64,000 nucleotides of DNA. It comes from Pontibacter sp. Tf4 (GTDB lineage: Bacteria; Bacteroidota; Bacteroidia; Cytophagales; Hymenobacteraceae). A model generated the notes under the pieces. The model was not told where the DNA came from, did no database searches, and saw nothing but the letters and a program-made list of their open reading frames with translations. The DNA lies in assembly GCF_014212495.1 (NCBI RefSeq), contig NZ_JACKZC010000006.1, forward strand, positions 248,001 to 312,000. The letters are read 5' to 3'. A program made the position numbers and the translations under genes. This document shows, piece by piece, positions 1 through 37,213 of the stretch (positions are counted from its first letter, which is position 1; each line of letters begins with the position of its first letter).

Positions 1-1305
1 CTTGGCCGCTTCTTCGAAGACAAGACCGGGCAGCCATTAAAAGCCGGGTTAAAAATCCTGTTCCAGGCAAGCGTGCGGTTCCACGAACTATACGGTCTGA
101 GCCTGGACATCCACAACATAGACCCAAACTATACCATCGGCGACCTCGCCCGCCAGCGCCAGGAAACGATAAAACGTCTGGAAGCCGAAGGCTTACTGAC
201 AGCCAACAAAGAACTAGAGTTGTCGGAAGTTCCGCAGCGACTGGCTATCGTTTCGTCGGCCACTGCAGCCGGTTACCAGGATTTTATACACCAACTGCAG
301 CACAACGCCTACGGCTATAGTTTCCATACCACGCTTTTCCCGGCTACCGTTCAGGGTAATGATGCGCCAGCTTCTGTAAACAAAGCCATGGCGCTTATTG
401 CCAACTATAGCGAGCGATTTGATGCGATTGTAATGATACGTGGAGGCGGTTCGCAGACAGATCTGAGTTGCTTTGATGATTATACTATTGCCGCTGCTAT
501 TGGTAATTCGCCGTTGCCTGTACTAACCGGTATCGGCCACGAGCGCGACGAAAGTATAGCCGACCTGGTAGCGCACACCCGCTTAAAAACGCCAACTGCC
601 GTTGCTACTTTTTTGATTGACCGCTTCAGAAGTGCCGAAGAATATACAGAAGGTCTGTACGATAGCATCAGGCTTTTTACATCACAGCAACTACGGCTTA
701 CGGAAGATCGATTAGAGCGACTGCAACTAAGTATTTCAAATACCACCAAAGATTTTCTGCAGGAAGGTCGGGAGCTACTGGAGAATTTATCGCGTGGTTT
801 GCTGGTAAAGCCTAAGAATTACCTGAATCTGCAGCAGCACACCGTAAGTGATTTGGAGCGTGACATCAGATCAAACACCAAATCCCTCTTACACACCCGC
901 GAGAGACACCTGAGCGAATTGTCGGTTTGTGTGGAAGGCAGGGCGCAACGCTATCTGCACATGAAGGAGCATGAACTAAATACGCTCAGCCACTGTGTAG
1001 AAACGGAAGTAAAGGAGAGCATCAAGCAGAAACAGATCAGTTTTACCAAGCAAAGCGATAAACTGGAATTTGCTACTGACCGCAAACTACAAACCGAACA
1101 ACACCGCCTGAATCTGATAGAAGCCAGCATCAAAGCCAACGACCCGGAGCGACTGCTACTGCGCGGGTATACGCTTACGTTAGTGAATGGCAAGATCATC
1201 AAAAGCATTAACCAGGTACAGCCCGACGATGTGGTAGAAACCCGCATGAAAGATGGCACCATCCATAGTATAGTTGTAAACAAAGACACCAATGACACCC
1301 TATAA
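1..1305 (+). CDS. xseA: Exodeoxyribonuclease VII large subunit (5' end outside window)
   Basis: Large catalytic subunit of the cytoplasmic exonuclease that degrades single-stranded DNA from both ends to short acid-soluble pieces. The frame is open from base 1, and its first residues (LGRFFEDKTGQPLKAG) already fit the end of the OB-fold domain, so the true start lies left of the window and the GTG at 73 is internal. The family block VRFHERYGLSL appears as VRFHELYGLSL. Catalytic-domain signatures MIRGGGS and GIGHERDESIAD follow, then a long coiled-coil region and the C-terminal RGYTLTLVNGKII segment. It overlaps xseB by 14 bases, so the two subunits are probably translationally coupled. Function rests on established family knowledge; confidence is high. 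Confidence 0.95.
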   Translation, partial: LGRFFEDKTGQPLKAGLKILFQASVRFHELYGLSLDIHNIDPNYTIGDLARQRQETIKRLEAEGLLTANKELELSEVPQRLAIVSSATAAGYQDFIHQLQHNAYGYSFHTTLFPATVQGNDAPASVNKAMALIANYSERFDAIVMIRGGGSQTDLSCFDDYTIAAAIGNSPLPVLTGIGHERDESIADLVAHTRLKTPTAVATFLIDRFRSAEEYTEGLYDSIRLFTSQQLRLTEDRLERLQLSISNTTKDFLQEGRELLENLSRGLLVKPKNYLNLQQHTVSDLERDIRSNTKSLLHTRERHLSELSVCVEGRAQRYLHMKEHELNTLSHCVETEVKESIKQKQISFTKQSDKLEFATDRKLQTEQHRLNLIEASIKANDPERLLLRGYTLTLVNGKIIKSINQVQPDDVVETRMKDGTIHSIVVNKDTNDTL

Positions 1306-1564
1306 AGACATTAAAACCATGACCTACCGTGAGGCCACGCAGGAACTGGAAGAAATTTTACGCGCCATCGAAAACGACTCTGTTGACGTGGACGAACTAA
1401 CCCAGAAAGTGCAGCGCTCGTCGCAGCTCATAAAGCTGTGCAAAGAAAAACTACGCGCCGCCGAACAAGCCATCGACCAGGTATTTAACGAGGAGAACTG
1501 CGAAGAACCAGCCAAGCAAAAGAAAGCGGAAGGTAAGGTTAGTGGAAGTGGGACGTTGTTTTAG
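1292..1564 (+). CDS. xseB: Exodeoxyribonuclease VII small subunit
   Basis: Small helical subunit that binds XseA to form active exonuclease VII. The protein is 90 residues, within the usual 60-90 range, with the family pattern TYREATQELEEILRAIE near the N terminus, then VDELTQKVQ and a C-terminal helix CKEKLRAAEQAI. Two starts are possible: ATG at 1292 (overlapping the xseA stop by 14 bases) and ATG at 1319, which would give the more canonical MTYREA N terminus. The Lys/Glu-rich tail after about residue 70 is not typical of the core family. Co-location with xseA makes the call safe; only the start is uncertain. Confidence 0.93.
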   Translation: MTPYKDIKTMTYREATQELEEILRAIENDSVDVDELTQKVQRSSQLIKLCKEKLRAAEQAIDQVFNEENCEEPAKQKKAEGKVSGSGTLF

Positions 1565-2465
1565 GTCTGAATCAGGATTTACAAGATTTGAAGATTTTCA
1601 GGATTTGGGGTTTTGCTATAGTTAGAGTTATTGTTCTATAGTTAGAATACACACCCCTACCCCTCTCAAGAGGGGGAATTGCTTCTGTTGCTATGGTTGG
1701 GGCTATAGTTCTGTAGTTGAGGGATTAACACCCCTGCAGTCCCCTCAAGGGGACAATTTCTGGGTCTGCTATATTTTCATAGTTGGCATTGGTCCAACCA
1801 CCCCCTACCCCTCCTTGTCCAAGGAGGGGAATTTGTACGCCTTTACCAGCTCAATAACTATAGTTCTATAGTTACAGACCGAAAGCAGGCAGGCGCAGCC
1901 TGGCCCAAGGAATTGTAACCACGAGAAAAACCGATCTGCTCGAGCCAAAAGCAAGAGCAGTAACTATAGCCAAAGTATCTACTATCGAGCTTGATATCAG
2001 TCTTTGGGTTGAGCGCCTTGTAGATTTCCGGTGGCGTAGCCATTGCGAGGCACGAGCAAAGGAAATGTACACCGCGCGATGCTCGAAGACGGGGCCTCCC
2101 GGCCCGGGAGGGAGCCAAGCTAACTATAAAACGATAGGTAAGTAGAGCTCCCAGGATTGGTAGATTCTATAGAATGATGGCTTGGTCCAAGTAGTAGGCA
2201 AAGTAAACTATAGGACATATAAGATGCCTCGACTGACGCTCGGGATGACAAAGAAGCAACTATAGTATGAGATAGATTTCTCACTCTGTTCGAAATGACA
2301 AAAGAGCGGAAAAAACTATAGGACGCATAAGATATCTCACAGCAATGCTGGCTCTTTTCCACTTGCGTCTCAAGAATGCTCGACATGACAGAAAGAGAAA
2401 CTATAGCACTAAAGCTTATAAACTATAGTCGAAAGCCGTTGGAAATACAACCAACGGCTTTTGTC
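1565..2465. repeat. Gene-free composite repeat block A
   Basis: About 900 bases between the convergent xseB and the trehalose-6-phosphate gene, with no convincing gene. It is a mosaic of modules that recur at 22969-23600 and, inverted, at 26239-26880: an 'aatcaggatt' segment at the left, G/C-run hairpins (CCCCTCAAGGGG at about 1740-1753; CCCCTCCTTG..CCAAGGAGGGG near 1806-1830), the 320-bp core repeat, and a 'gagatagatttctcac' module at 2269-2300. CTATAG is extremely dense (at least ten sites). Short open frames inside share a PEIYKALNPKT-like string among copies, but I judge this to be DNA repeat conservation rather than a gene. Confidence 0.75.
1871..2190 (+). repeat. 320-bp intergenic repeat, copy A
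   Basis: Near-identical core shared with copies at 23111-23430 (same orientation) and 26392-26709 (inverted). Best-conserved parts are the segment around GAGCGCCTTGTAGATTTCC, the partner GGAAATGTACACCGCGCGAT (these two can pair imperfectly, 14 of 17 bases), and a GC-rich hairpin at 2095-2111 (cctcccgg-c-ccgggagg). Flanking parts diverge more. No terminal inverted repeats or transposase are visible. It could be a structured RNA, a MITE-like element or a bidirectional terminator/REP-type element. Confidence 0.8.
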
Positions 2466-4679
2466 TTATCCTGTCATTTTCGCATTAGAAGCTTCCCGGC
2501 TCTCCTGCTTTATCAGTTTAAACAGCATTTCCCTTACTTCGCCTGGACCATCTAAATGGTACTTGGCAATGGAATAGGAGTTACCGGTTTTAATGGTATA
2601 AGCATTGCGCGGCATGGCTTTAAAAATTTCCTCATCGCCCCAGTCATCGCCTACGGCCAGCACAAACTCGTGCGGGTACATGTTCAGCCAATGACTGGTA
2701 GCTTTGCCTTTGTTTACTTCCTGCGCTTTTATTTCTACGGCCATTTGTCCATCCAGCACCTGCAGGTTACTGTTCGATGCCAAGAAAGTCAGGTGATTGA
2801 CCAGTTCCCGGGCACGCAACTCGCCCAGACCGGTTTCTACGCGGCGGTAATGCCACACAAGCGAATGTTCCTTCTCTTCTATAAACGAGCCAGGCGTTCG
2901 GTCAACGTATAGTTCCAGTATCAACCGGATATCGCTTTTCCAGTCATCCATCAGGCTCATCATGGTTTTCCAGCCGGAGCCGCGTTGTTTCAGCCATACG
3001 CCGTGTTCCGCTACAATATCCAGATTCAGGTGGCCGAGCCAGTCTTCCATATTGGCTTTCTCGCGACTGCTGATCACGACTACCCTGTTCTTAGGGTTAT
3101 TGCTCAGGTTCTCCAACAGCTCCAGCAGGTCTTCGTCGGGGCGGGCCAGCAGGGGTTTGGATTTATAGTTGGTAAGGCCGCCGTCATACTCCAGGAAGAT
3201 AAGTCGGGAGCTGGCCATCTCGTAGGAGTCGCTCATTTCCTGGAAGGTAGCATCGTCCAGGTAGCTGGTTTCCATCGACATCTGCTTGATCTTGACATAC
3301 GACAGACGATCCATGAACAAACCAACCCAATGGTGGATGTTATAGCGCTTCAGGGTTTCCTGCATGTTGATCATGTGCTGACGCTGCTCTTCCACAGGCA
3401 TGGTAAGGGCCTCGTACAGGGCGTCTACCATTTTATTGATATCGTTCGGGTTGATGAGCAGCGCATCGGAGAGCTCTTTTGAAGCTCCTGCCATTTCGCT
3501 GAGTATCAGCACTCCTTTTTGGTCTAATTTACTGGCCACATACTCTTTGCACACCAGGTTCATGCCATCGCGCATTGGGGTAACCAGTGCCACATTGGCC
3601 ATCCTGTAAAACGCCGAAAGTGTCTCGAGGGGCAGCGAGCGGTAAAAATACTGGATCGGGTTCCAGTTGATATGGCTGTACTTACCGTTAATGCGGCCAA
3701 CCAGTTCATCCACTTCTTCTTTCAGCTCCTTGTACTTTTCTACGGCATCGCGGCTGGGCACTACCAGCATTACCAGGGTCACTTTTTCATGAAATTCCGG
3801 GTAGCGCTCCAGAAACATTTCAAACGCTTCGAGGCGTTGCGGTATCCCTTTAGAATAATCGAGCCTGTCTATGGAGATGATGATATTTTCGGTACCCACA
3901 TTGCGGCGATACTCCTGCTCCAGTTTCAGCACTTCTTCGGAGGCAGCTACGGAGGCGTATTTCTCATAATCTATACCCATCGGGAAAGAATCGACCAGGA
4001 GCGAGCGGTTGCCGGTGTTAATCCAGCCGTGCATGCCGCCATAGCCCAGAATACGGTTTACCGAGCTCAGGAAGTGGCGCATATCGTCGTAAGTGTGGAA
4101 GCCTACAAGATCGGCGCCCAACATGCCTTCCAGAAGCTCGCGGCGCCAGGGCAGCAGCCTGAACACTTCGTAACTCGGAAACGGAATATGCTGGAAGAAA
4201 CCGATAGTGCTGTCGGGTAGCTTTTTGCGCAGCATGGAGGGCAGTAACAGCAGCTGGTAATCGTGTACCCAGATGGTATCGTTGGGGTTGGCGTGCTTCA
4301 GTATTTCATCGCAATACTTCTGATTTACCTCTACATAGGTTTCCCACAAGTCGTGGTCGTAAACGGCATACTGGCTGAAATAATGAAAAGACGGCCAGAG
4401 CGTTTCGTTACTGAATCCTTCGTAAAACTCCTTTATTTCATTATCTGTCAGGAAGACAGGGTACATATTTTCATGGCTCAGATCTTCCACCACCTGCTCC
4501 TGTATCAGCAGGTCATCTATTACCGTACCAGGCCATCCGATCCAGAGGTTATCTTTCTTTTTATAGATAGAACCGAGCCCTGTCGCTAAGCCGCCTTCGC
4601 TCGGGGTGTACTTCAGCTTTCCTTCCTTCTCCTGCAGTTTAACCGGCAAACGGTTAGAAACAATAATCAGTTTTGCCAT
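2466..4679 (-). CDS. otsAB: Bifunctional trehalose-6-phosphate synthase / phosphatase-like protein
   Basis: 737-residue fusion. Residues 1-460 are a GT20 synthase that makes trehalose-6-phosphate from UDP-glucose and glucose-6-phosphate: VSNRLP (7-12), SEGGLATGL (27-35), HDYQLLLLP (139-147), FQHIPFPS (162-169), IDRLDYSKG (270-278) and TPMRDGMNL (367-375) all look intact. Residues 490-730 are a HAD-type trehalose-phosphatase domain with VAEHGVW (556-562) and GDDWGDE (677-683). The first HAD motif, normally DYDGT, reads EYDGG: Glu497 replaces the nucleophilic Asp and Gly replaces the Thr, and ISGRD reads ISSRE. Phosphatase activity is therefore doubtful (inference). It stands alone on the minus strand, convergent with xseAB. 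Confidence 0.93.
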   Translation of the reverse strand: MAKLIIVSNRLPVKLQEKEGKLKYTPSEGGLATGLGSIYKKKDNLWIGWPGTVIDDLLIQEQVVEDLSHENMYPVFLTDNEIKEFYEGFSNETLWPSFHYFSQYAVYDHDLWETYVEVNQKYCDEILKHANPNDTIWVHDYQLLLLPSMLRKKLPDSTIGFFQHIPFPSYEVFRLLPWRRELLEGMLGADLVGFHTYDDMRHFLSSVNRILGYGGMHGWINTGNRSLLVDSFPMGIDYEKYASVAASEEVLKLEQEYRRNVGTENIIISIDRLDYSKGIPQRLEAFEMFLERYPEFHEKVTLVMLVVPSRDAVEKYKELKEEVDELVGRINGKYSHINWNPIQYFYRSLPLETLSAFYRMANVALVTPMRDGMNLVCKEYVASKLDQKGVLILSEMAGASKELSDALLINPNDINKMVDALYEALTMPVEEQRQHMINMQETLKRYNIHHWVGLFMDRLSYVKIKQMSMETSYLDDATFQEMSDSYEMASSRLIFLEYDGGLTNYKSKPLLARPDEDLLELLENLSNNPKNRVVVISSREKANMEDWLGHLNLDIVAEHGVWLKQRGSGWKTMMSLMDDWKSDIRLILELYVDRTPGSFIEEKEHSLVWHYRRVETGLGELRARELVNHLTFLASNSNLQVLDGQMAVEIKAQEVNKGKATSHWLNMYPHEFVLAVGDDWGDEEIFKAMPRNAYTIKTGNSYSIAKYHLDGPGEVREMLFKLIKQESREASNAKMTG

Positions 4680-4958
4680 TAGAATTTGCGTTATGAGCTG
4701 GCAATAATTGTAATACCGGGCTCTACGGCCATATTTTTAAGTAAATGATCAACTATAAGCTTAATTTTTGCGCGTGTTTACACTCTTATTCTTACGTAGC
4801 ATCTCCCGTTAGCGTTGGCCTTATATTAGCATTTGGCTATACACTGAAATTGCACAGTTGTATATGTAGCTGCAAACCAGCACAAAAGCCTTATAAAATA
4901 ACCTGCAGCTATCTTCCGGAGTACTAACAGGGGTATTTACCATCCGCAACTATAGCCT
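4680..4958. promoter_or_regulatory. Divergent promoter region otsAB / MscS
   Basis: A 279-base gap between the divergently transcribed trehalose-6-phosphate gene and the MscS gene, so it must hold promoters for both. I see no clear TAnnTTTG box. A 60-codon open frame at 4745-4927 has no family resemblance and is not credited. A CTATAG site lies just before the MscS start (about 4950). Confidence 0.4.
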
Positions 4959-6035
4959 ATGCATAAACTCCAGTCGTTTATAGATCACCTCGATAACCTG
5001 GCCATTTCGCTTATTATTTTTGCCGTAAGTATTGTGCTGGGCCTGCTCCTGAATTTCATCCTTTTTAAGCTGATCGGTATGTACAACCGCACCAGCAACC
5101 CATTGCTGGTATCGTCGGTAAACCGCCGCCTGCGTCAGCCTCTCACCTTTCTTACACCACTGCTGTTTGTTTCTATTGCGCTGCCAACTGTGCCACTTTC
5201 ACCGGGGGAGTTACATGTTCTGAGGCGGGTGATAGAGATCCTGAACATTATTGCCTTTGCCTGGCTGCTGATCAGGGTAGTATCGGTGGTGCAGGACATG
5301 GTGCGCCATAAATATGCTATTGATAAGGCCGATAATTTCAGGGAGCGCAAACTGGTAACGCAGCTGCAGTTTGTACGCAAGCTCTCCGTTATGCTGATCC
5401 TGTTTTTTGCTGTATCGCTGGTATTGCTGCAGTTTGAGGCCGTGCGAACACTGGGTACCGGCCTGCTGACCTCGGCAGGTATAGCCGGAGTTGTACTGGG
5501 TTTTGCGGCGCAGCGCTCGCTGGCAAACCTGCTGGCAGGCCTTCAGATTGCTTTTACACAACCCATCCGGATTGATGACGTGCTGGTAGTGGAGAATGAA
5601 TTTGGCCGCGTGGAAGAAATAACCCTGACCTATGTGGTACTGCGCCTCTGGGACAACCGCCGACTGATACTGCCTCTTAATTACCTGATCGAAAAGCCTT
5701 TCCAGAACTGGACACGCACCAGTACCGAAATACTGGCTACCGTTTATTTTTACACCGACTACAATGTGCCAGTGGAAGAACTCCGCAAAGAGCTAAGCAG
5801 CATACTGTCCGCTTCAAAACTATGGAACGGGGAGGTAGCTGGCCTGCAGGTAACTGATATTCTGCCCGATACAGTGCAGCTACGCGCCTTGTTCAGTGCC
5901 TACAACTCCGGCGAAGCCTGGGATCTGCGTTGCCTGGTGCGTGAAAAGCTGCTTTACTTTATCCAGAAAAACTATCCCGGTTCGTTACCTAAAGTACGCG
6001 CCTCCGTAGACGGCGGTATAACTGCAAACAAATAG
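4959..6035 (+). CDS. Small-conductance mechanosensitive channel family protein
   Basis: 358-residue inner-membrane protein of the MscS family, which opens on hypo-osmotic shock to release small solutes. Membrane segments lie at about residues 15-37, 60-80, 88-108, 138-160 and 165-190. The pore helix is Ala/Gly rich (TSAGIAGVVLGFAAQRSL) and is followed by the beta-domain signature IAFTQPIRIDDVLVV and the cytoplasmic segment EEITLTYVVLRLWDNRR. Lying between trehalose-synthesis genes, it fits an osmotic-stress context, since trehalose accumulated at high osmolarity must be released on dilution (inference). The assignment is family level; no specific mscS/mscM symbol is justified. Confidence 0.9.
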   Translation: MHKLQSFIDHLDNLAISLIIFAVSIVLGLLLNFILFKLIGMYNRTSNPLLVSSVNRRLRQPLTFLTPLLFVSIALPTVPLSPGELHVLRRVIEILNIIAFAWLLIRVVSVVQDMVRHKYAIDKADNFRERKLVTQLQFVRKLSVMLILFFAVSLVLLQFEAVRTLGTGLLTSAGIAGVVLGFAAQRSLANLLAGLQIAFTQPIRIDDVLVVENEFGRVEEITLTYVVLRLWDNRRLILPLNYLIEKPFQNWTRTSTEILATVYFYTDYNVPVEELRKELSSILSASKLWNGEVAGLQVTDILPDTVQLRALFSAYNSGEAWDLRCLVREKLLYFIQKNYPGSLPKVRASVDGGITANK

Positions 6036-6079
6036 CTATACTTGCCTGTAGTTTAATTACGCTATACTTTCAACCGCAC

Positions 6080-6679
6080 ATGAATTTCTTCGACGCCCTC
6101 GACCCCACCCTTGTTAATTGGGTACTTATTCCGCTGCTAATTTTCCTGGCCCGCATTATGGACGTAACACTGGGCACCCTGCGCATCGTGTTCATCTCGA
6201 AAGGTGATAAAATGATTGCGCCGGCGCTGGGCTTTTTAGAAGTGCTGATCTGGCTGGTAGCTATAACGCAGGTAATGCAAAACCTGAACAACGTGGCTTC
6301 TTACCTGGCCTGGGCAGGTGGCTTTGCAACCGGTAACTTCCTGGGGCTGCGTATCGAGCAAAAACTGGCGCTGGGGCAAATGGTAGTGCGGGTCATTACC
6401 GTAGATTCGGCCCACAACCTGATAGAACGACTAAAAGGACACGGCTATAGATTGACCTGTGTGGATGCCCGTGGCACGCGCGGCAAAGTAAATCTGCTGT
6501 TCATGATCGTAAAGCGCAAAAAACTGAACCATGTGCTCGACATCATCCGGGAATATAATCCGCAGGCATTTTATACTATCGAAGATGTGCGTTCAGTATC
6601 AGACTATAGTTTGCCACAGGAAGAATCTAAAAGAGGCCTGAATTTCCGCCGCATCTTCCCGCTGCGGAAAGGAAAATGA
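6080..6679 (+). CDS. DUF5698/DUF2179 (UPF0316) membrane protein
   Basis: 199 residues. The N-terminal half carries about three transmembrane helices with the family string FLARIMDVTLGTLRIVFISKG. The C-terminal soluble part (about 105-180) is a DUF2179 domain with VITVDSAHNLIERLKGHGYR and FYTIEDVRSVSD, a fold that in related proteins is proposed to sense small ligands. A basic tail ends the protein. The start ATG at 6080 follows an AT-rich stretch containing TATACTTT. It is 44 bases after the MscS gene on the same strand and may be co-transcribed. Biochemical function is unknown for the family. Confidence 0.85.
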   Translation: MNFFDALDPTLVNWVLIPLLIFLARIMDVTLGTLRIVFISKGDKMIAPALGFLEVLIWLVAITQVMQNLNNVASYLAWAGGFATGNFLGLRIEQKLALGQMVVRVITVDSAHNLIERLKGHGYRLTCVDARGTRGKVNLLFMIVKRKKLNHVLDIIREYNPQAFYTIEDVRSVSDYSLPQEESKRGLNFRRIFPLRKGK

Positions 6680-6684
6680 TTTAT

Positions 6685-6768
6685 AGTTTAGGAGTTTGTG
6701 AGTTTGGGAGTTAAAGAGTTATTAATTCCTCAACTCCCAAACTCTTTAGCTCTCTAACTCCTAAACTT
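6685..6768. terminator. Long bidirectional hairpin between convergent genes
   Basis: Imperfect inverted repeat: AGTTTAGGAGTT (from 6685) pairs with AACTCCTAAACT (6756-6767), and TTTGGGAGTT (about 6703-6712) with AACTCCCAAA (6732-6741). The right arm covers the last codons and stop of glgB. Its position between convergent DUF5698 and glgB genes suggests a shared terminator. Confidence 0.55.
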
Positions 6769-8985
6769 AAAATATACCACTGCCAAAGGCGGTAACTTCA
6801 GGGTAAGCGAATAATCACGGCCATGCGATGGCTCTTCTGCAGCCTGCAGCGATTCTTGGTTTTGCACGTTACTGCCACCGTACTGCTCATCGTCGGAGTT
6901 GAAAAGCTGTACCCACTCGCCTTTGTGTGGCACGCCTAACCTATAGTTCTCATGTACTACAGGGGTAAAATTGCAAACTATAAGTACATCGTTTTGGGGG
7001 TCGTTGCCTTTCCGTAAAAAGCTGATCACGCTGTTGTGCGCATCCTGAAAGTCTACCCATTCAAAGCCGCTGCTGTCGAAATTGTGCTCATAAAGTGCAG
7101 GTTCCTGCTGGTATAGTTTGTTAAGTTGCTGCAACAGCCGCTGCACCCCGCTATGGTAATGGTACTGTAGCAGGTGCCATTCCAGGCTGCTGTCGTGGTT
7201 CCATTCTGTGCTTTGGGCCAGCTCGCCTCCCATAAACATGAGTTTGGTGCCCGGGTGTGCATACATGTAACTATAGAGCATGCGCAGGTTGGCAAATTGC
7301 TGCCATTCATCACCCGGCATTTTACGGATAAGCGAGCCTTTGCCATGCACCACTTCGTCGTGCGACAGCGGCAGCATAAAGCGCTCCGAAAAGGCATAAA
7401 TGATGCTGAACGTGATCTCGCCCTGGTGGTGTTTGCGGTAGATCGGGTCTCTGGAGAAATAGGCCAGCGTATCGTGCATCCAGCCCATCATCCACTTCAT
7501 GTCAAAGCCAAGTCCGCCATCGTTTACTTTACCCGTTACCGCCGGCCATGCCGTTGATTCTTCGGCTATAGTTTGCACATCCGGATACTTTTCATGCACT
7601 GCCTGGTTAAAGTCTTTTATCAGCGAGATGGCTTCCAGGTTTTCGCGGCCGCCATGCTCGTTTGGTATCCATTCACCATCCTTGCGGCTATAGTCTAAGT
7701 ACAGCATCGAAGCCACGGCATCCACACGCAGTCCGTCCACGTGGTACTTATCCAACCAGAAAAGTGCATTGCTGATCAGGAATGAACGGACTTCGTTGCG
7801 GCCATAGTTGAAGATGTAGCTGTTCCAGTCCGGGTGGTAGCCTTTGCGCGGGTCGGCGTGCTCGTACAAATGTGTGCCATCAAAATAAGCCAGCCCATGC
7901 TCATCCGACGGAAAATGCGACGGTACCCAATCCAGGATAACACCAATGCCATGTTGGTGCAGCACATCAATCAGGTGCATGAGTTCCTGCGGCGAACCAT
8001 ACACGCTGGCGGCAGCAAAATACCCGGTGATCTGGTAACCCCAACTGCCCATAAACGGGTGGTACATCACGGGCATAAACTCCACGTGCGTAAAGCCCAT
8101 TTCCTTTACATATTGCGGCAGCTCCTCAGCCAGTTCGTGGTACGTCAACGGTCGGTTGTTATCTTCCGGCCGGCGGCGCCACGAACCTAAATGCACTTCG
8201 TACACGCTCATAGGCTGCGCCTGACCGGCTATAGTTTTGCGGCGCTCCATCCACTCGTGGTCCTGCCATTCGTATTTCAGGTCGCTGATGCGTGATGCGG
8301 TTTGTGGTGGCTTTTCGCGTGCAAAAGCAAACGGGTCACTTTTCTCGACGTGGTATAAATGGTAGTTCGATTTGATGTGATACTTGTATAGTTCGCCACC
8401 GGTCAGATCCGGAATAAAACCTTCCCAAATGCCGGATCCATCTTCCCTAACCTTCAAACTATGGCTGTCGCGGTTCCAATGGTTAAAGTCACCAATGACC
8501 GTAACGCGTTCCGCATTGGGCGCCCAAACCGCAAAACAAGTACCTTTCTGCCCGGCATGTTCCATGCAATGCGCACCCATTTTATCATACAAGGTAAAGT
8601 GGCGGCCTTCCTTAAACAGGTAAATATCAAATTCTGTAAAGCGACTGACGTCGTGGTAAACAGCTCTTTTCTCCTGCTGAACTATAGTTTGCGGTTCTGC
8701 TATAGTTGCAGCGCCTGCTGCTGCCTTTTTAGTAGCCCTTACTTTTGGAGCTGGTGTAAGATCAGTTGTCTCAACAGGTACTGCTTTGGTACGGGTTCTC
8801 TTTGATTTTACGGCTGGCGGCGTAGTTTCAGTAGCAGGAACTATAGTTACTGGTGCACCCATTTCTGCAGCCAGATCTGCCTTTTTGGGCCGACCACGCT
8901 TTGCTGCGGGCTTATTACTACCTGCATCAGTTAATGGTTTATTTAAGTTTGTTTCCGGTGTCTGCTCTAATTTCTTCTTAGCCAT
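6754..8985 (-). CDS. glgB: 1,4-alpha-glucan branching enzyme with basic N-terminal extension
   Basis: 743-residue GH13 enzyme that cuts alpha-1,4-glucan and rejoins it through alpha-1,6 bonds. A CBM48-type domain (about 118-230) carries FAVWAPNAERVTVIGDFNHW. The catalytic barrel has DGLRVDAV (nucleophile Asp422), IAEES (acid/base Glu475) and LSHDEV (Asp543), followed by a C-terminal all-beta domain. Residues 1-110 are unusual: Lys/Ala/Thr/Pro-rich low complexity with an AT-hook-like KRGRPKK (29-35). The start is firm because ATGGCTAA overlaps the stop of treS by 8 bases, indicating translational coupling. It is last in the glgE-treS-glgB operon, supplying branch points to the GlgE-made glucan. 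Confidence 0.95.
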   Translation of the reverse strand: MAKKKLEQTPETNLNKPLTDAGSNKPAAKRGRPKKADLAAEMGAPVTIVPATETTPPAVKSKRTRTKAVPVETTDLTPAPKVRATKKAAAGAATIAEPQTIVQQEKRAVYHDVSRFTEFDIYLFKEGRHFTLYDKMGAHCMEHAGQKGTCFAVWAPNAERVTVIGDFNHWNRDSHSLKVREDGSGIWEGFIPDLTGGELYKYHIKSNYHLYHVEKSDPFAFAREKPPQTASRISDLKYEWQDHEWMERRKTIAGQAQPMSVYEVHLGSWRRRPEDNNRPLTYHELAEELPQYVKEMGFTHVEFMPVMYHPFMGSWGYQITGYFAAASVYGSPQELMHLIDVLHQHGIGVILDWVPSHFPSDEHGLAYFDGTHLYEHADPRKGYHPDWNSYIFNYGRNEVRSFLISNALFWLDKYHVDGLRVDAVASMLYLDYSRKDGEWIPNEHGGRENLEAISLIKDFNQAVHEKYPDVQTIAEESTAWPAVTGKVNDGGLGFDMKWMMGWMHDTLAYFSRDPIYRKHHQGEITFSIIYAFSERFMLPLSHDEVVHGKGSLIRKMPGDEWQQFANLRMLYSYMYAHPGTKLMFMGGELAQSTEWNHDSSLEWHLLQYHYHSGVQRLLQQLNKLYQQEPALYEHNFDSSGFEWVDFQDAHNSVISFLRKGNDPQNDVLIVCNFTPVVHENYRLGVPHKGEWVQLFNSDDEQYGGSNVQNQESLQAAEEPSHGRDYSLTLKLPPLAVVYFKFRS

Positions 8986-16352: not shown

Positions 16353-16354
16353 AT

Positions 16355-25338: not shown

Positions 25339-26238
25339 TTGAAGTTAGCAGCCATCGATATAGGATCCAACGCCGTCAGATGTCAGATTTCCAGTGCCCT
25401 TAAGCACGAAGAGCAGGTTATATTCAAACGCATCGAGTATATCCGCTATGCGATCCGTTTCGGTGAGGATGTCTTTAACTCGGGCTACATCAGCGACCTG
25501 AAGATCCAGAAATTTGTAAAGCTGCTGCATGCCTTTCAGTTGCTGCTGGATGTGCACGATGTCGATCATTTTATGGTGTGCGCCACATCGGCGATGCGTA
25601 ACTCCCAGAATGCCCCGCAGATATTACAATTAGTGCAGGATACGCTGGGCATGGGCATTCAGGTGATAGATGGCGCTGCCGAAGCTGACCTGATCAACAA
25701 AGTAATTGTTAACTTCCTGGACGAGCGCAATTACCTGCACATTGATGTGGGCGGCGGCAGCACCGAGTTCAATATTTATGTGAACCGCGAAAAGGTAGCC
25801 TCACGCTCGTTTGAGCAGGGTTCAATACGCCACATGCACGGCCGCGACTCCGAGGAGCTCTGGAACAACATGCGCCTCTGGATCGAAGAAAACTCCCGTA
25901 AGTACCATCTTTCGCGGGCCATCGGCACCGGCGGCAACATCAACAAGATCCACGACTTAGCGGGTAAAGCGCCGGGCAAGCCGATCTTCCGGAAGCAGAT
26001 TGAAGAAGTAGTAGCCCTGGTTTCGAGCATGACGATGGAGGAACGCCTGACCAAACTGCTCCTGAACCCCGACCGCGCCGACGTAATTCTGCCAGCTGCT
26101 GAAATTTACCTCTCTGCCATGAAATGGGCCAAACTGGAAACGATGATGGTACCGAACGTTGGTCTGAAGGACGGGATGATTCACGCCCTTTACGAGCAGT
26201 TCCATCCAGAGAGGTTTGTGATCAGTGGGATTAGTTAA
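25339..26238 (+). CDS. ppx: Ppx/GppA-family phosphatase (exopolyphosphatase)
   Basis: 299-residue ASKHA-fold protein with phosphate-1 loop AAIDIGSNAVR (4-14) and phosphate-2 loop HIDVGGGSTEFN. It hydrolyses terminal phosphates of polyphosphate and, in some members, pppGpp. The short length means the C-terminal HD-type domain of long Ppx proteins is absent. The start must be the TTG at 25339: an in-frame TAG directly precedes it and the essential DIGSN loop begins only a few residues in. It faces ppk1 convergently across repeat block C, so synthesis and breakdown of polyphosphate are adjacent. Confidence 0.9.
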   Translation: MKLAAIDIGSNAVRCQISSALKHEEQVIFKRIEYIRYAIRFGEDVFNSGYISDLKIQKFVKLLHAFQLLLDVHDVDHFMVCATSAMRNSQNAPQILQLVQDTLGMGIQVIDGAAEADLINKVIVNFLDERNYLHIDVGGGSTEFNIYVNREKVASRSFEQGSIRHMHGRDSEELWNNMRLWIEENSRKYHLSRAIGTGGNINKIHDLAGKAPGKPIFRKQIEEVVALVSSMTMEERLTKLLLNPDRADVILPAAEIYLSAMKWAKLETMMVPNVGLKDGMIHALYEQFHPERFVISGIS

Positions 26239-26880
26239 GAGCTAACTATAGTTTCTCTTTTGTCATCCCAAGCATTAGTCAAGGGATCTTATTTGTCCTA
26301 TAGTTTCTACTATTGTCATTTCGAACAGAGTGAGAAATCTATCTCAAACTATAGTTTGTAGTTCTATAGTTGGTTTTGCCTACTGCTGGAAACAAGCCAT
26401 CATTCTATAGTTTCCTCCAACCCTGGGAGCTCTAAGAGCCTATAGTGCTATAGTTTACTTGGCTCCCTCCCGGGCCGGGAGGCCCCGTCTTCGGGCATCG
26501 CGCGGTGTACATTTCCTTTGCTCCTACGTCGCAATGCCCTGCAGGCACCGGAAATCTACAAGGCGCTCAACCCAAAGACTGAGTTCAGTTTGATAGATTA
26601 TGCCTTAGCTGTAGTTTATTTATTTGCTTTTGGTGGGAGCAGATCTGCTTTTCTCGTGGTTATAGTTTCAAAGGGACAGGTAAACCTGCCCTGTTCGTGA
26701 TCTGTAACTATAGAACTATAGCTGAACTATAGCAAAGACGGAGACTGTCCCCTTGAGGGGACTACAGGGGTGTTAAAGTAGCAACTATAAAACTATAGTC
26801 TTAATTATAGCAAAAAGCACGGATCCTGAAAATCCTTTCATCCTGAAAATCCTTGGGGTAGGGGCCCTATTTAGAGATTT
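26239..26880. repeat. Gene-free composite repeat block C (inverted)
   Basis: Between convergent ppx and ppk1. Holds the modules of blocks A and B in reverse order and orientation: TGTCATTTCGAACAGAGTGA onward at 26314-26345, the 320-bp core at 26392-26709, CCCCTTGAGGGGACTACAGG at 26749-26768 and an 'aatcctttcatcctgaaaatcc' module at about 26830. At least ten CTATAG sites. A 60-codon open frame at 26518-26700 lies in the repeat and is not credited. Confidence 0.75.
26392..26709 (-). repeat. 320-bp intergenic repeat, copy C
   Basis: Reverse-complement copy of 1871-2190 and 23111-23430. Hairpin core at 26466-26482. The GGAAATCTACAAGGCGCTCA segment (about 26550-26569) is identical across all three copies. 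Confidence 0.8.
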
Positions 26881-26911
26881 AGACAAAAACTCCGGAGATT
26901 ACCCCAGGAGT

Positions 26912-29014
26912 TTACACCAGTTCTATATCCGTGTTTTCGTAAATGTGGCGGTTGTAGAAGATCTTGTGCACATCGATTACTTCTTCGCCGGCAGCAGGAC
27001 GTTTTTTCACGTAGGTGCCATCTTCGCGCATGATGTAGGAGTTCTGGTTATCCAGCAGGTTATAGTGCAGGATCGTCATGGCTTCGCGGCGCAACTCGTC
27101 GTTCAGGAGCAGGAACAGGGCTTCAATTCTTCTGTCGAAACTGCGCACCATAATGTCGGCGCTGCCACTGTATACTTTCGGGTCGCCGGAGTTGTGGAAG
27201 TAATAAATACGGCTGTGCTCCAGGTACTCACCAACTATAGACTTCACGAAAATATTCTCGCTCAGGTCCTCGCGGCCTGGACGCAGGCAGCAGATACCAC
27301 GCACAATAAGTTTGATAGGCACACCGGCTTTCGAGGCTTTGTAAAACTCGTCCATCACCTCTTTGTCCTCCAGGGAGTTGATCTTGATCACGATGCCGCT
27401 TTTATACCCTTTTTTGGCATTTTTAGCTTCGTTACGTATCAGTTCGATCAGTTGGCTGCGCAGGCCTTTCGGCGAGGTCATCAGCGATTTATATTCGTTC
27501 GGGCGCGAGTGGCCGGTAATTACATTAAAGAACTCTGATACGTCGTGGGCATATACTTCATCCGTAGTCAGCAGGCTTACGTCAGAATACAGGCGGGCGG
27601 TTTGCTCGTTATAGTTACCGCTGCCAATGTGTACGTAACGTGTTACCTTCTCCCCTTCCTTCCGGATGATCATCAGCATTTTAGTATGCGTTTTATACTT
27701 GCTGATACCATAAATCACAAAGCAGCCTGCCTTCTCCAGGCGGTCGCCTTCTTTCAGGTTACGCTCTTCATCAAAACGGGCCTTTACCTCAAACAACACC
27801 GATACGTGCTTCCCGTTCTCTGCAGCTTTGTGCAGGGCAGCTGTTACGCGGCTCTGGTCGGCGAGGCGGTAAATGGTTTGCTTAATTCCCAGCACATACG
27901 GGTCTTCGGCGGCGCGCTCCAGTAACTGTACCACCGGCTCCATGCTGTTGTAGGGGTGGTGCAGCAGCACATCGTGCTCTTTCAGGTACTGGAAAAGGTC
28001 TACCCCATCGCCGGGCAGGCTGCGCGGCATAACCGACGATGGCTGCTTAAAGCAACGGTCTTTGAACTGGCGGTGGTTGATGATCTGCCACAAGCCACGC
28101 AAATCCATTAAACTATTGATCGTAAAAACGTTGGCATTGTCTATTGTCCAGCGCTCTTTCAGGATCTTCATCATAAACGCCGACGGGTTGCGCTCCACTT
28201 CGAGGCGCACCACACGACCCTTCTTGCGCGTTTTCAATTTCGACTTGATCTCCTGTACAAAATCCGCATCAATATCATCCGACTCTTCCAGGGTAAAGTC
28301 GCCGTTACGGGTAATACGGAACAGGTTTATGGATACGATCTCGACGTTACGGAACAGCTTTTTGATCTTCCAGCGCACGATCTCTTCGATGGGCACAAAT
28401 ACAATTTTGTCCTTTCGGTTGATCTCGTAAAAACGGGCCAGGTTCTGAGGTATCTGCACAAATGTCAGGCGGTCCTGCGACTTGCCTTCGTCTTCGGTAC
28501 GGGTTACCACGCCAAACGTAAGCAGCTGGTTCATCAGCAGCGGGAAGCCGTGGTAATTGTCGAACACCATGGGCGTGAGCAGCGGGAAAATGGTATTCTT
28601 AAAGTAAGAGTCTACTTTTTTCTGCTCAATTTCGGTCAGCTCGCCAACCATCAGCACATCAAAACCACTCTTCTCAAAAAGCGGCTTCAGCTCGTTGTTG
28701 TAAGTAAGGTACTGGTCGTTTACAAAGCGGTGCGAGTAGTCTAACAGCTTTTTGCGGAATGGCAGCTCGCGCAACCCCGAATAGTCCAGGCGCTCTTTGC
28801 CGTAGTCGATGTAATTGTACAAACTGCCTACCCGGATCATGAAAAACTCATCCAGGTTAGAAGACGTGATGGCTAAAAACTTCAGCCTGTCGAAAATAGA
28901 GCGGTTGGTATCGCGGGCCTGATCGAGTACGCGGTAATTAAAGCGCAGCCAGCTCAGGTCGCGGCTAATGTATTTACTTTTCTTTATCTGGTCAGAAACC
29001 TTATTTACAAGCAT
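26912..29014 (-). CDS. ppk1: Polyphosphate kinase 1
   Basis: 700-residue enzyme that polymerises the gamma phosphate of ATP into polyphosphate. Domains: N (8-110, with SRDLSWLRFNYRVL), head (about 120-320) and two PLD-like C domains. The autophosphorylated His is His443 in YKTHTKM; the second HKD-type His is His600 in LEHSRIYYFHNSG. IGSGNYNEQTARLYSD (463-478) and SADIMVRSFDRRIE (618-631) are in place. It is monocistronic on the minus strand and convergent with ppx. Confidence 0.96.
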   Translation of the reverse strand: MLVNKVSDQIKKSKYISRDLSWLRFNYRVLDQARDTNRSIFDRLKFLAITSSNLDEFFMIRVGSLYNYIDYGKERLDYSGLRELPFRKKLLDYSHRFVNDQYLTYNNELKPLFEKSGFDVLMVGELTEIEQKKVDSYFKNTIFPLLTPMVFDNYHGFPLLMNQLLTFGVVTRTEDEGKSQDRLTFVQIPQNLARFYEINRKDKIVFVPIEEIVRWKIKKLFRNVEIVSINLFRITRNGDFTLEESDDIDADFVQEIKSKLKTRKKGRVVRLEVERNPSAFMMKILKERWTIDNANVFTINSLMDLRGLWQIINHRQFKDRCFKQPSSVMPRSLPGDGVDLFQYLKEHDVLLHHPYNSMEPVVQLLERAAEDPYVLGIKQTIYRLADQSRVTAALHKAAENGKHVSVLFEVKARFDEERNLKEGDRLEKAGCFVIYGISKYKTHTKMLMIIRKEGEKVTRYVHIGSGNYNEQTARLYSDVSLLTTDEVYAHDVSEFFNVITGHSRPNEYKSLMTSPKGLRSQLIELIRNEAKNAKKGYKSGIVIKINSLEDKEVMDEFYKASKAGVPIKLIVRGICCLRPGREDLSENIFVKSIVGEYLEHSRIYYFHNSGDPKVYSGSADIMVRSFDRRIEALFLLLNDELRREAMTILHYNLLDNQNSYIMREDGTYVKKRPAAGEEVIDVHKIFYNRHIYENTDIELV

Positions 29015-31375: not shown

Positions 31376-31396
31376 AATTTATAGCTAAACTATGGT

Positions 31397-33370
<1,974 letters not shown>

Positions 33371-33547: not shown

Positions 33548-33577
33548 TCGGGCTACCCACTTGCGCAGGTAGCCCGA
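33548..33577 (-). terminator. Terminator hairpin after the SIMPL-like lipoprotein gene
   Basis: Ten-base perfect stem TCGGGCTACC (33548-33557) / GGTAGCCCGA (33568-33577) with a 10-base loop. On the minus strand it is followed by a T-rich run (TGTTTTTATA), as expected for intrinsic termination of the gene that ends at 33602. Confidence 0.8.
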
Positions 33578-33601
33578 CGGCACTATAAAAACAGGAAAAA
33601 A

Positions 33602-34249: not shown

Positions 34250-34380
34250 AGTTGTATAGTTGTTTTATATATAGTACGCTGATAGCGATAACCGTGCCAC
34301 ATACAGTTTGCAATGAACAGTAAATACTTAATTGCAAACTGAAAATAGATTCCTGTATTTTAGACTATAGTTTATAACGT

Positions 34381-34713: not shown

Positions 34714-34715
34714 CA

Positions 34716-34757
34716 TTACAGTAAACAGTTAGCAGCAAACAGTTAGCAGTAAACATT
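34716..34757 (+). repeat. Short tandem repeat
   Basis: Two to three imperfect copies of a 14-base unit (CAGTTAGCAGYAAA) right after the DUF486 stop. Function unknown. Confidence 0.6.
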
Positions 34758-34839
34758 AATTTGGCTGAGTTAGCAGAATAAGCGCTGCATTTGATGCTAT
34801 AGTTTGCAGGGAAAGATCAGTTTGGAGTAATGCTGTTCC

Positions 34840-34864
34840 AGAGGCTGGCTTTGCCGGAGCCTCT
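34840..34864 (+). terminator. Hairpin downstream of DUF486 gene
   Basis: AGAGGCT / AGCCTCT stem enclosing a small GGC-TTT-GCC inner hairpin, followed by TTGCTTTT. A plausible intrinsic terminator. Confidence 0.5.
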
Positions 34865-34950
34865 TTGCTTTTGGTGGCTGCAAACCTGCTTTCCGGCAGC
34901 TGATAGCTAATTTAAAGGCGTTCATGCTTTTACATTCCTGCCAATGGGCG

Positions 34951-34958
34951 TACCTTTG
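34951..34958 (+). promoter_or_regulatory. Putative -7 box of the SCO/cytochrome operon
   Basis: TACCTTTG matches TAnnTTTG and lies 33 bases before the ATG at 34991. Confidence 0.5.
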
Positions 34959-34990
34959 CAACAAAATTGCAAACATTTACCACAGGCCTC

Positions 34991-35419
34991 ATGAAAAAGC
35001 CCCTCCTGCTGTTGTCGCTCTCGGTTGCCCTGCTTACGGGCTGCAACACAGGCCCCACTGAAGCAGAACAGAAAGCCCAGCTGGAGCAACACGTAATGGC
35101 CGTACACGACAGCGCCATGGCCGATATGGGCCAGATCTTTAAGCTCCGTAAAAACCTGCGTACTCTGCGCGACACCCTGGCTACCCAGCAAACCGACACC
35201 ACTGTGCTGCTGCAACTACAGGAAAACATTACCAGCCTCAGCAAAGCCGACGAAGCCATGATGGACTGGATGCGGAACTATAAAGCGCCGGACTCCCTGC
35301 AGCACCAACAGGCCATGGACTACCTGAACCAGGAACTTCAGAAAATTGAGAAAGTAAAAACAACTATGGACAGCTCGATAAACGCTGCCCGACAAGTTTA
35401 CCAGCAACATGAACTATAG
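34991..35419 (+). CDS. Hypothetical coiled-coil lipoprotein
   Basis: 142 residues from ATG 34991 (a TTG eight codons earlier is less likely because the signal peptide MKKPLLLLSLSVALLTGC starts here). Lipobox LLTGC, then an almost wholly helical, charged body predicted as coiled coil. Not recognised beyond that. It overlaps the next gene (SCO) by 11 bases, so the two plus the cytochrome form one operon; a periplasmic role in metal or respiratory assembly is inference from context. Confidence 0.75.
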   Translation: MKKPLLLLSLSVALLTGCNTGPTEAEQKAQLEQHVMAVHDSAMADMGQIFKLRKNLRTLRDTLATQQTDTTVLLQLQENITSLSKADEAMMDWMRNYKAPDSLQHQQAMDYLNQELQKIEKVKTTMDSSINAARQVYQQHEL

Positions 35420-36080
35420 CCTTAAGCAAAGCCTACTTGCCGTTTCAGTTATACTTACAGCAGCCTTTACCTATAGTTGCCAGAGCAACCCATCCGAAAA
35501 AACGCTGCCCATTTTAGGCTCCCGCGAGCCCGTAGAGCGCGTGGTGAATGGAGAAACTATAGTTGATACCGTGTACCACCAGATCCCGGATTTCGCTTTT
35601 GTGGACCAGGACAGCCAGCAGGTAACACAGGAGACCGTAGCCGGAAAAATCTATGTGACTGACTTCTTTTTTACGACCTGCCCGAGCATCTGCCCTAAAA
35701 TGAAAAGCCAGATGCTGCGCGTGTACGAGAAATATAAAGACAACCCGAACGTAGTGCTGCTTTCGCATACCATAGACCCCGCCCACGACACGGTAGCTGT
35801 ACTGAAAGACTATGCCGAGCGTATGAACGTAACATCGGGAAAGTGGCACTTTTTAACCGGCGACCGCGACAAGATATATGATATGGCGCTGCAGTATTTT
35901 GTTGGTGTACAGGAAGATGCCCAGGCTGAAGGTGGTTTTGCGCACAGCGGCGATTTTATGCTGATCGATCAGAACCGTCATATACGGGGGCACTACCACG
36001 GCACCGAAGCCGCCGATGTTGACCGCCTGATGCAGGACATGGACATTTTGCTGAAAGAAGTACAGCATGAGAAAAAATAG
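35409..36080 (+). CDS. SCO1/SenC family copper-chaperone-like protein
   Basis: 223 residues, lipoprotein-type leader (FTYSC), then a thioredoxin-fold SCO domain: TDFFFTTCPSICPKMKSQM holds the CxxxC copper/thiol motif, and a conserved His follows near FAHSGDFMLID. SCO proteins deliver copper to the CuA centre of cytochrome oxidase or act as thiol reductants in the periplasm. It overlaps the upstream lipoprotein gene by 11 bases and the cytochrome gene by 14. Confidence 0.92.
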   Translation: MNYSLKQSLLAVSVILTAAFTYSCQSNPSEKTLPILGSREPVERVVNGETIVDTVYHQIPDFAFVDQDSQQVTQETVAGKIYVTDFFFTTCPSICPKMKSQMLRVYEKYKDNPNVVLLSHTIDPAHDTVAVLKDYAERMNVTSGKWHFLTGDRDKIYDMALQYFVGVQEDAQAEGGFAHSGDFMLIDQNRHIRGHYHGTEAADVDRLMQDMDILLKEVQHEKK

Positions 36081-36483
36081 GTTTGTAACAGGTGTATTAG
36101 GGCTGATGGCGCTCACCACGCTTACGCAATGCTTTACCGATAAGCAGAACCAGGGCCAGAAACTATACGCGCAGCACTGCCAGAGCTGCCACATGGAAGA
36201 CGGATCGGGGCTGCGCGGGCTTATACCGCCAATTGCCAAAGCCGATTACCTGCAGACCCACCGCGATGAGCTGGCCTGCCTGATACGCCACGGCGCAGAC
36301 GGACCGATGGTGGTAAACGGCATAGAATATAACAAGGAAATGCCCGGTGTGCACACGCTCCGCCCCGACGAAATAACCAACCTGCTCAACTATATCCAGA
36401 CTAACTTTGGCAACAAGAACGAGCGCTACACTTTAACCGAGGTGAAAGGAATGCTGGAAACCTGTCCGGTTCCGTATGAGTAG
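36067..36483 (+). CDS. Monohaem cytochrome c, membrane-anchored
   Basis: 138 residues with a leader ending TLTQC (lipobox-like) and one haem site YAQHCQSCHMEDGSG (CxxCH). A downstream Met, probably in NKEMPG, is the likely sixth ligand. A periplasm-facing electron carrier. Overlap with the SCO gene indicates co-translation and a link to terminal oxidase assembly or activity. Confidence 0.9.
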   Translation: MRKNRFVTGVLGLMALTTLTQCFTDKQNQGQKLYAQHCQSCHMEDGSGLRGLIPPIAKADYLQTHRDELACLIRHGADGPMVVNGIEYNKEMPGVHTLRPDEITNLLNYIQTNFGNKNERYTLTEVKGMLETCPVPYE

Positions 36484-36510
36484 ATTCTGACACCTTACAC
36501 TGTTAAATGT

Positions 36511-37059
36511 ATGAGAAAAGTAATCTTAGACTTAGCTGTAACATTAGACGGATTCATTGAAGGCCCGAATGGCGAAATTGACTGGTGCGTGCTGGATGAA
36601 GACATGGATTTCCCCGATTTCCTTTCCGGCATCGATACCATCATCTACGGTCGGGTGAGCTACGATATGTGGGGAAATTATCAGCCGGACCAGCATGCCT
36701 CTGAAGCTGAAAAATTACTCTGGGCGGCGGTGCATAGCAAGCAAAAAGTAGTTTTCTCCAGCCAACTGCGACAAGATGAAAGCAGAGCTCTATTTGTTAC
36801 ATCTGATCTGCCGCAACAAGTAGCCGAACTAAAGCAGCTTCCAGGGAAAGATATCTGGCTTTACGGAGGTGCAAAACTGATCACATCCTTTCTCCACCAC
36901 AACTTAATCGACATTTTCCGCCTGGCAGTGCACCCAACTGTATTAGGGAGCGGTAACCCTTTGTTCCCGGATCTGAAGGAGAGAATTAACCTGAATCTGA
37001 TTGAGGTCAGTAAATTTAAATCAGGAGTAGTACAGCTCGTTTATGAGAAGAATAAATAG
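36511..37059 (+). CDS. Dihydrofolate-reductase-like (RibD C-terminal) protein
   Basis: 182 residues of the RibD_C/DHFR-like superfamily: LDLAVTLDGFIEGPNGEIDW at the N terminus, TIIYGRVSYDMW, and IWLYGGAKLITSFLHHNLID, which would bind NADPH. Members are usually annotated 'dihydrofolate reductase family protein'; the true substrate is unknown. Last core gene before the tRNA junction; probably its own unit (27-base gap after the cytochrome gene). Confidence 0.88.
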   Translation: MRKVILDLAVTLDGFIEGPNGEIDWCVLDEDMDFPDFLSGIDTIIYGRVSYDMWGNYQPDQHASEAEKLLWAAVHSKQKVVFSSQLRQDESRALFVTSDLPQQVAELKQLPGKDIWLYGGAKLITSFLHHNLIDIFRLAVHPTVLGSGNPLFPDLKERINLNLIEVSKFKSGVVQLVYEKNK

Positions 37060-37180
37060 TTAACAGTAATTGCCCGCTGTTAATCAACTATAGTTTTTAA
37101 TCACTGGTTTTAGTACGACTTTGTGCGCTTTGTCTCTGCACAAACTATAGTTAACTTAATACAAGTGGCATAAAAACAAA

Positions 37181-37213
37181 AAAGCCTTGCAAATCAACGA
37201 CTTACAAGGCTTT
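37181..37213 (-). terminator. tRNA terminator hairpin
   Basis: Nine-base perfect stem AAAGCCTTG (37181-37189) / CAAGGCTTT (37205-37213). Directly 3' of the minus-strand tRNA-Arg fragment, followed on that strand by T-rich sequence. Confidence 0.75.

Follow-up and report, generated by a model that had tools for sequence, protein, structure and literature searches.

The DNA analysed here (the window) is a stretch of 64,000 nucleotides from Pontibacter sp. Tf4, corresponding to C20:248001-312000 of a genome (G000) of 4,452,287 bases in 23 contigs. Its first 37,200 positions are crowded with a short asymmetric word, YTATAGTT, which often appears as the hexamer CTATAG; the remainder, beyond a tRNA-Arg fragment, is poor in it. 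We refer to the form of the word in this genome as dialect A, and to related words in other genomes of the genus as dialects B and C. The features in question are as follows.

1-37200: native DNA with many copies of the dialect-A word (CTATAG 83 times; TATAGTT 124 times counting either strand, of which 87 fall inside CTATAG)
1616-2428: intergenic cluster of 12 CTATAG, the first starting at 1616 and the last at 2423
1856-1865: AACTATAGTT in this first cluster; the next CTATAG starts at 1866
26244-26253: AACTATAGTT at the second intergenic cluster
26246-26798: intergenic cluster of 11 CTATAG, between open frames ending at 26238 and starting at 26912
26912-29014, reverse strand: polyphosphate kinase gene (Pfam PF02503 and others), used for the genus tree
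37086-37095: AACTATAGTT; this site and the one at 37143-37152 are the last two words ahead of the junction
37217-37249, reverse strand: 3' fragment of tRNA-Arg(TCT), the island attachment site, identical to the 3' part of the intact tRNA in G164 and G175
37250-64000: acquired island, word-poor (seven CTATAG, near expectation)
37374-38918, forward strand: tyrosine recombinase (integrase; PF00589, E 3.8e-18), adjoining the attachment site
39209-40915, reverse strand: island gene for an AbiEii-type toxin, with its DUF6088 partner (PF08843, PF19570)
42853-44133, forward strand: HipA-like gene on the island (PF07804)
C20:314,660-315,847, about 2.7 kb beyond the window: C5 methyltransferase gene (PF00145) in the word-poor part

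Word-dense DNA and an island at tRNA-Arg

Exact counting finds CTATAG 90 times in the window: 83 times in 1-37,200 and seven times in 37,201-64,000, for which a first-order Markov model expects 7.4 and 5.9, respectively. An earlier note on this DNA had estimated about 80 and about seven by eye, with a drop to background past the junction, and the exact figures bear this out. For Markov orders 1, 2, 3 and 4 the expectation in 1-37,200 is 7.4, 6.1, 27.6 and 67.9; orders 3 and 4 expect more because the sub-words of CTATAG are enriched too, which leaves a small excess over order 4. Ranked by order-3 score, CTATAG leads the hexamers of 1-37,200; the 12 listed for the remainder do not include it. 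The whole genome holds 7,947 CTATAG compared with 897 of the reversed control GATATC.

Along the contig, bins of 5 kb contain 3-18 CTATAG between 188 kb and about 287 kb; beyond that point, as far as the contig end at 366 kb, they contain 0-3. The low density thus persists for 54 kb beyond the window, with 13 CTATAG in the 80,918 bases of the word-poor part; counted as TATAGTT on either strand, the same bases hold 21 words, compared with 124 in the 37,200 native bases. An integrase gene lies beside the 3' fragment of the tRNA, and an intact tRNA-Arg(TCT) adjoins the same native gene at the empty site of the relatives G164 and G175; the word-poor part is therefore an island integrated at tRNA-Arg. 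ARAGORN detects no complete tRNA in the window, in which only the 3' part of the tRNA-Arg is present. Beside the same tRNA fragment, G155 carries integrase, AbiEii, DUF6088 and HipA genes that are 95-98% identical in amino-acid sequence, and G159 has a related integrase (65%) at the fragment. No far end of the island could be located on this contig. The change in density does coincide with a real tRNA-Arg fragment, as had been noted, and the suggestion that the word marks native DNA and its absence acquired DNA holds for this island as far as the contig end.

Outside the island G000 is not uniformly dense. The sampled stretches of other contigs fall into seven high (1.65-2.35 CTATAG per kb) and seven low: L010 (0.5 per kb), L013 (0.25), L016 (0.35), L017 (0.69), L018 (0.37), L019 (0.96) and L020 (0.3), on contigs C2, C5, C8, C9, C10, C11 and C12, respectively. 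These seven may represent further acquired DNA, as candidate islands or plasmids.

The repeated unit and its placement

The repeated unit is the asymmetric YTATAGTT and not the palindrome CTATAG. We counted the words in a mixed pool of 528,511 bases, made up of G000 stretches without L004, the native window part and 30 polyphosphate kinase loci (L021-L050, 5.1 kb each, from 30 genomes). This pool contains 626 CTATAG, 537 TATAGTT and 484 AACTATA, where 87, 31 and 33 are expected. Of the 1,021 TATAGTT on either strand 397 lie outside CTATAG, so that the half-site is enriched alone, and 509 of the 626 CTATAG have at least one TATAGTT half. The native window part behaves alike: 73 of its 83 CTATAG have a TATAGTT half and 14 have both. 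AACTATAGTT consists of two overlapping inverted copies of YTATAGTT. The words of dialects B and C, TTATACTT and CTATACCT, are asymmetric as well, and the palindrome proposed as the unit in the earlier note has to be given up.

The consensus is (A/G)CTATAGTT(T/G), with a flank preference spanning about ten bases; outside positions -3 to +7, every column out to 30 bases carries at most 0.06 bits. One-off variants are partly enriched, for example TTATAG at 4.2 times its level in G179. In cleaner dialect-A samples, comprising 297,200 bases of G000 chosen as native, 440,000 of G175 and 280,000 of G164, the TATAGTT counts on either strand are 1,015 (42.9 expected), 1,344 (87.8) and 946 (55.1), respectively. 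Scaling these samples up would give about 13,000 words per genome.

The word occurs in genes and in gaps, as the earlier note had described, at about one per kb or more. Coding words are 7-12 times as frequent as after synonymous-codon shuffling in six samples: 486 versus 51.5 (G000), 607 versus 82.1 (G175) and 403 versus 56.1 (G164) for dialect A, 193 versus 26.7 (G179) and 187 versus 25.8 (G162) for dialect B, and 236 versus 19.8 (G165) for dialect C. In five samples, with open frames called by length as distinct from curated annotation, gaps are 2.0-4.9 times as dense in words as genes. In all six samples the intergenic density is highest between convergent genes, intermediate between codirectional genes and lowest between divergent genes. 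A promoter role was set aside on this last point. There is no sense bias in dialects B and C; in dialect A one sense frame of the word contains a stop codon.

By eye, the intergenic regions 1565-2465 and 26239-26911 of the window also contain dispersed repeats (e.g. around gtcatttcgaacagagtgagaaatct) in both orientations, with word sites in the linkers, and similar pieces appear in the comparison of G175 with G164.

Dialects within the genus

The family survey covered 204 genomes, 50 of the genus and 154 of five other genera. Genomes with more than 2,500 CTATAG were labelled A, the twelve genomes rich in CTATACCT were labelled C, those with at least 80 AAGTATACTT were labelled B and the remainder other. 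The 50 genomes of the genus then divide into seven of dialect A (TATAGTT), 20 of dialect B (TATACTT), 12 of dialect C (TATACCT) and 11 with none or other. CTATAG numbers 2,756-7,947 in the seven, 429-1,644 in the other 43 and 33-833 in the 154 genomes outside; conservation among relatives, which the earlier note had wished to see examined, thus extends to part of the genus and to none of the five other genera. AAGTATACTT numbers 82-259 in the twenty B genomes, 120 in G159 and 80 in G191 (both mixed), 5-39 in the rest of the genus and 0-23 outside, and CTATACCT per strand 1,397-2,713 in the twelve C genomes, 81-435 in the rest of the genus and at most 117 outside. Samples of 200 kb confirm the excess for G162 (B; 500 versus 27.5 expected) and G165 (C; 378 versus 30.7), where the words are again asymmetric (TTTATACTTT and GCTATACCTG).

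Two initial assignments had to be changed. G179 was dropped as a word-less relative, since it has its own enriched word, TATACTT. G159 and G191 (L024 and L027) were first taken for simple losses of the system and were reassigned, as both carry A and B words; their two dialects may reflect either a transition or a reversal. G163 is ambiguous, with nine B and seven A words in 3.8 kb but 12 and one in 20 kb. Some further genomes of the genus are mildly above control in CTATAG, for example G163 (1,644 versus 937), G183 (1,605 versus 1,000) and G195 (1,588 versus 1,030). The group labelled other, to which G163 belongs, is thus heterogeneous: a weak TATACCT signal appears in G187 (19 versus 4.2), and G182 (L301, L309-L312) has an excess of TATATAG (99 versus 15.9) and TTATATAT (65 versus 7.7), which is perhaps a fourth dialect or perhaps simple A/T repeats.

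By polyphosphate kinase, the nearest of 80 named loci are those of Pontibacter (85-95% identity), with Botryobacter at 84%. We scanned 75 of the 80 named loci. Among the 22-kb loci of seven named Pontibacter, P. burrus has the dialect-A word (60), P. ruber (42), P. mangrovi (31) and sp. 172403-2 (34) have that of dialect B, sp. HSC-14F20 has that of dialect C (55), and P. diazotrophicus and P. silvestris have none. In the other 68 scanned loci none of the three words is among the top three listed, and the highest count is 18 TATACTT in a locus of an uncultured Chitinophaga. The 22-kb loci of Hymenobacter (L199, H. wooponensis; L217, H. fodinae; L201, H. crusticola; L211, H. setariae; L195, H. 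nivis) show other dense words: TGGCCTAG in L199 (14 versus 1.2 expected), ACCTAGGT in L201 (16 versus 0.7), CCTAGGT in L211 (29 counts) and GGGGCCCC in L195 (34 versus 2.8). As CTAG is otherwise rare (295 versus 1,098 expected in the mixed pool), those that contain it stand out, and these are perhaps further lineage words.

The dialects follow phylogeny on a tree of polyphosphate kinase from the 50 genus genomes and three named entries (that of Botryobacter being identical to G180), which is a single-gene tree from a quick search with weak deep forks. The four dialect labels need six changes on this tree, compared with a mean of 25.8 for shuffled labels, none of 200 shuffles being as low. Dialects A and C each occupy one branch with a support of 100 in the Shimodaira-Hasegawa-like approximate likelihood-ratio test, and A adjoins the B genome G179 (97).

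To follow the change from one dialect to another we compared orthologous sites by means of orthologs and blastn blocks, the flanks of 13 5-kb loci not being syntenic. TATAGTT of G000 is retained at 98 of 197 sites in G164, 25 of 105 in G159 and two of 96 in G179. Opposite these words G159 has 12 TATACTT, four TATAATT and no TATATTT, and G179 has four TATACTT and neither of the others. The baseline at the base that distinguishes A from B, from three dialect-A pairs in both directions, is seven C to 23 A or T. The excess of C at this base has Fisher p values of 0.0013 (G159) and 0.007 (G179), calculated from pair directions and overlapping regions that are not independent; the restriction to native DNA and the use of all dialect-A pairs had raised them from 0.0006 and 0.004 and left our weighing of the explanations as it was. 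Relict TATACTT in native G000 DNA is retained at 15 of 20 sites in G159 and 13 of 22 in G179. We read this as dialect B being the older, eroding in the A lineages and partly replaced at the same sites by C>G swaps, with A having arisen inside B. An origin of words by multi-base replacement was considered and dropped, since coding differences in the close pair G175 and G164 are mostly single substitutions.

Within dialect A, CTATAG is kept above control hexamers of equal make-up between G000 and G164 (18/35 versus 27% and 18/43 versus 22%). The pair G175 and G164 shows the same less clearly (128/238 versus 48% and 128/180 versus 48%).

What may read the word

In most respects that can be judged from sequence, the pattern is that of uptake-sequence dialects. 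To our knowledge such dialects have been known from the Neisseriaceae and the Pasteurellaceae, both of which have type IV pili. The likeness to an uptake sequence suggested in the earlier note is borne out by the dense asymmetric word, its phylogeny-following dialects and its depletion in the island. We consider that the word may well work like a DNA uptake or self-recognition sequence with a pilus-independent reader, and hold the case for and against this to be about evenly balanced. The fuller proposal is slightly more tentative: that a genome-saturating word in at least three dialects enables the genus to recognise DNA of its own, through an uptake reader that needs no pilus, and that changes of dialect hinder the exchange of genes among groups of species. 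Word-bearing DNA would be preferred by a sequence-specific reader, located either on the cell surface or along the uptake path, and recombination of the preferred DNA would spread and maintain the word by molecular drive. A shift of the preference of the reader by one base would then let the genome drift to a new dialect (TATACTT being the older, with TATAGTT in A and TATACCT in C), and acquired DNA would remain without the word until it had been resident long enough. The existence of the reader, its action in uptake and recombination as the drive are all inferred.

The DNA uptake sequence (DUS) of the Neisseriaceae is the closest parallel. According to PMC3630211, its dialects follow phylogeny, two dialects occur in one genome, copies form overlapping dyads, intergenic placement is permissive and up to nearly 6,000 copies occur in 2.4 Mb; PMC7371117 describes the finding of acquired elements by atypical DUS distribution. 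The word reported here likewise forms thousands of short asymmetric copies, and its dialects follow phylogeny and in some cases differ by one base. Also shared are the coexistence of two dialects within a genome, dyads of overlapping copies, one-off variants, an intergenic preference and depletion in acquired DNA, the last followed in detail for one island. The word differs in belonging to another phylum and in being shorter and A/T-rich. The uptake signal sequence (USS) of the Pasteurellaceae is a saturating short word with subtypes and flanking T-rich segments; the subtypes and saturation are shared here, whereas no flanking T-rich segments appear within 30 bases. The Apl subtype of the USS is treated in PMC3630211.

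Within the phylum the comparison is with Riemerella, which is competent without detected pilus genes according to PMC8459023. In PMC7965970, only own DNA lowered transformation of R. columbina when supplied in equal amounts, other DNA doing so only at tenfold, which indicates a preference for own DNA. Unlike here, no convincing word is reported for Riemerella in the sections consulted, and a table lists A-rich k-mers.

Several observations weigh against an uptake role. No reader of the word was found. A full-length pilus or type II secretion ATPase (PF00437) was found in none of the 50 genus genomes, nine of about 30-45 first-look candidates per genome having been scored. PF00437 is represented in the genus by fragments some 40-65 residues long, most of which lie in proteins of about 650, and G159, G170 and G177 barely pass the curated cut-off with a piece of about 60 residues; it is full-length in only four of the 204 genomes, all of other genera. 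From this ATPase family, the known DUS and USS machinery thus seems to be missing, and with it any known reader of the ComP type, unlike in the Neisseriaceae. We therefore liken the word to the Neisseria- and Pasteurella-type uptake sequences and do not assign it to them, and a reader acting in uptake would have to use a pilus-independent route, as proposed for Riemerella. ComEC is present in all 50 genus genomes, including the 11 without a clear dialect, and is not informative. DUF5689, the receptor-candidate domain of Riemerella, does not track the words in this genus, being present in 22 of 50 genomes, five of the 11 unclear ones included. No report of natural competence in Pontibacter was found in the literature searched. 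At the sites themselves, relict TATACTT of native G000 DNA is retained in G164 at only four of 23, G159 preserves the CTATAG sites of G000 no better than it does control hexamers (10/42 versus 21%), and word sites are more clustered than Poisson in 1-kb bins (variance/mean 1.3-3.0). Among the literature matches listed, none concerns these words or uptake sequences in Bacteroidetes genomes.

Two incidental observations concern these genes. In G186 and G167, where dialect words are present, a stop codon (TAG and TAA, respectively) interrupts the frame of the ComEC competence domain, and the DUF5689 copy of G000 stands beside an open frame that by eye looks SusD-like.

The alternative that survives best, which we nevertheless regard as unlikely, is that the word is bound by an abundant chromosomal protein with a role in nucleoid structure, condensation, termination or recombination, whose specificity has shifted twice and for which selection keeps thousands of sites. 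Half-sites in overlapping inverted pairs, a graded flank preference, denser convergent gaps and sites conserved at orthologous positions would all suit such a protein. No binding protein was found, however, and about three words per kb in genes and gaps would be much for site-by-site selection to maintain; two genome-wide retunings by one letter would come about more easily by drive. The divergent, promoter-bearing gaps are the least dense. None of 16 CTATAG of G000 faces a hexamer with 0-1 mismatches in G179, compared with half of the controls, which places the words at protein-variable positions.

A HIP1-type origin, in which a cognate DNA methyltransferase together with repair generates and maintains the site, appears improbable. 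HIP1 and the alternate HIPs (highly iterated palindromes) of cyanobacteria are very dense short words in genes and gaps, and the density and palindromic look of CTATAG resemble them; according to PMC4390886, one or more candidate methyltransferases are present in those cyanobacterial genomes that contain highly over-represented sequences. As far as examined, neither feature of the HIPs, palindromy or a candidate methyltransferase, is found here. The units of dialects B and C are asymmetric, and none of four methyltransferase families (PF01555, PF02086, PF00145 and PF02384) tracks dialect A in the 50 genomes. PF01555 is absent from G000, G155, G159, G164 and G175, PF02086 is present in two of the seven dialect-A genomes, and PF02384 occurs in all 50 genomes and is therefore not specific to dialect A. 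PF00145 is present in six of the seven (not G191), and no protein is common to all among those compared, from the five genomes G000, G155, G161, G164 and G175: the G000 and G161 proteins and one from G175 share 58-72% identity, those of G155 differ, and G164 has a single one, which reaches 24% identity with its closest match. The HIP1-like reading in the earlier note consequently fails for these four families.

We give similarly little credence to a Chi-like hotspot, read by a RecBCD- or AddAB-type enzyme that spares self DNA. The word is short, asymmetric, over-represented, lineage-specific and absent from the island, as such a hotspot might be, but it has no orientation bias with respect to replication: 440 kb of G175 (one contig, where we used sampled GC skew to place the replichore limits at 1.0 and 3.4 Mb) carry 685 leading and 659 lagging copies. 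Its density is also more than ten times that of Chi in Escherichia coli. Least probable of all is a context-dependent mutation or repair bias without function, which would account for the higher density where constraint is low and for the enriched one-off variants, while the preservation of sites above control within dialect A and a one-letter change of a seven-letter target on single branches would both seem to need a sequence-specific factor.

The same evolutionary pattern as in the known uptake dialects occurs here in Bacteroidota in which no full-length pilus motor ATPase was found. Because the dialect switch is caught at orthologous sites, it should be possible to find a co-evolving reader among the genes altered on two branches. 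Regardless of what reads it, the word provides a map of self and foreign DNA in these genomes, on which islands appear as gaps. A further word-poor stretch, G175:C1:2220001-2240000 (L075), holds four words in 20 kb together with a PF02384 methyltransferase gene and is perhaps a defence island.

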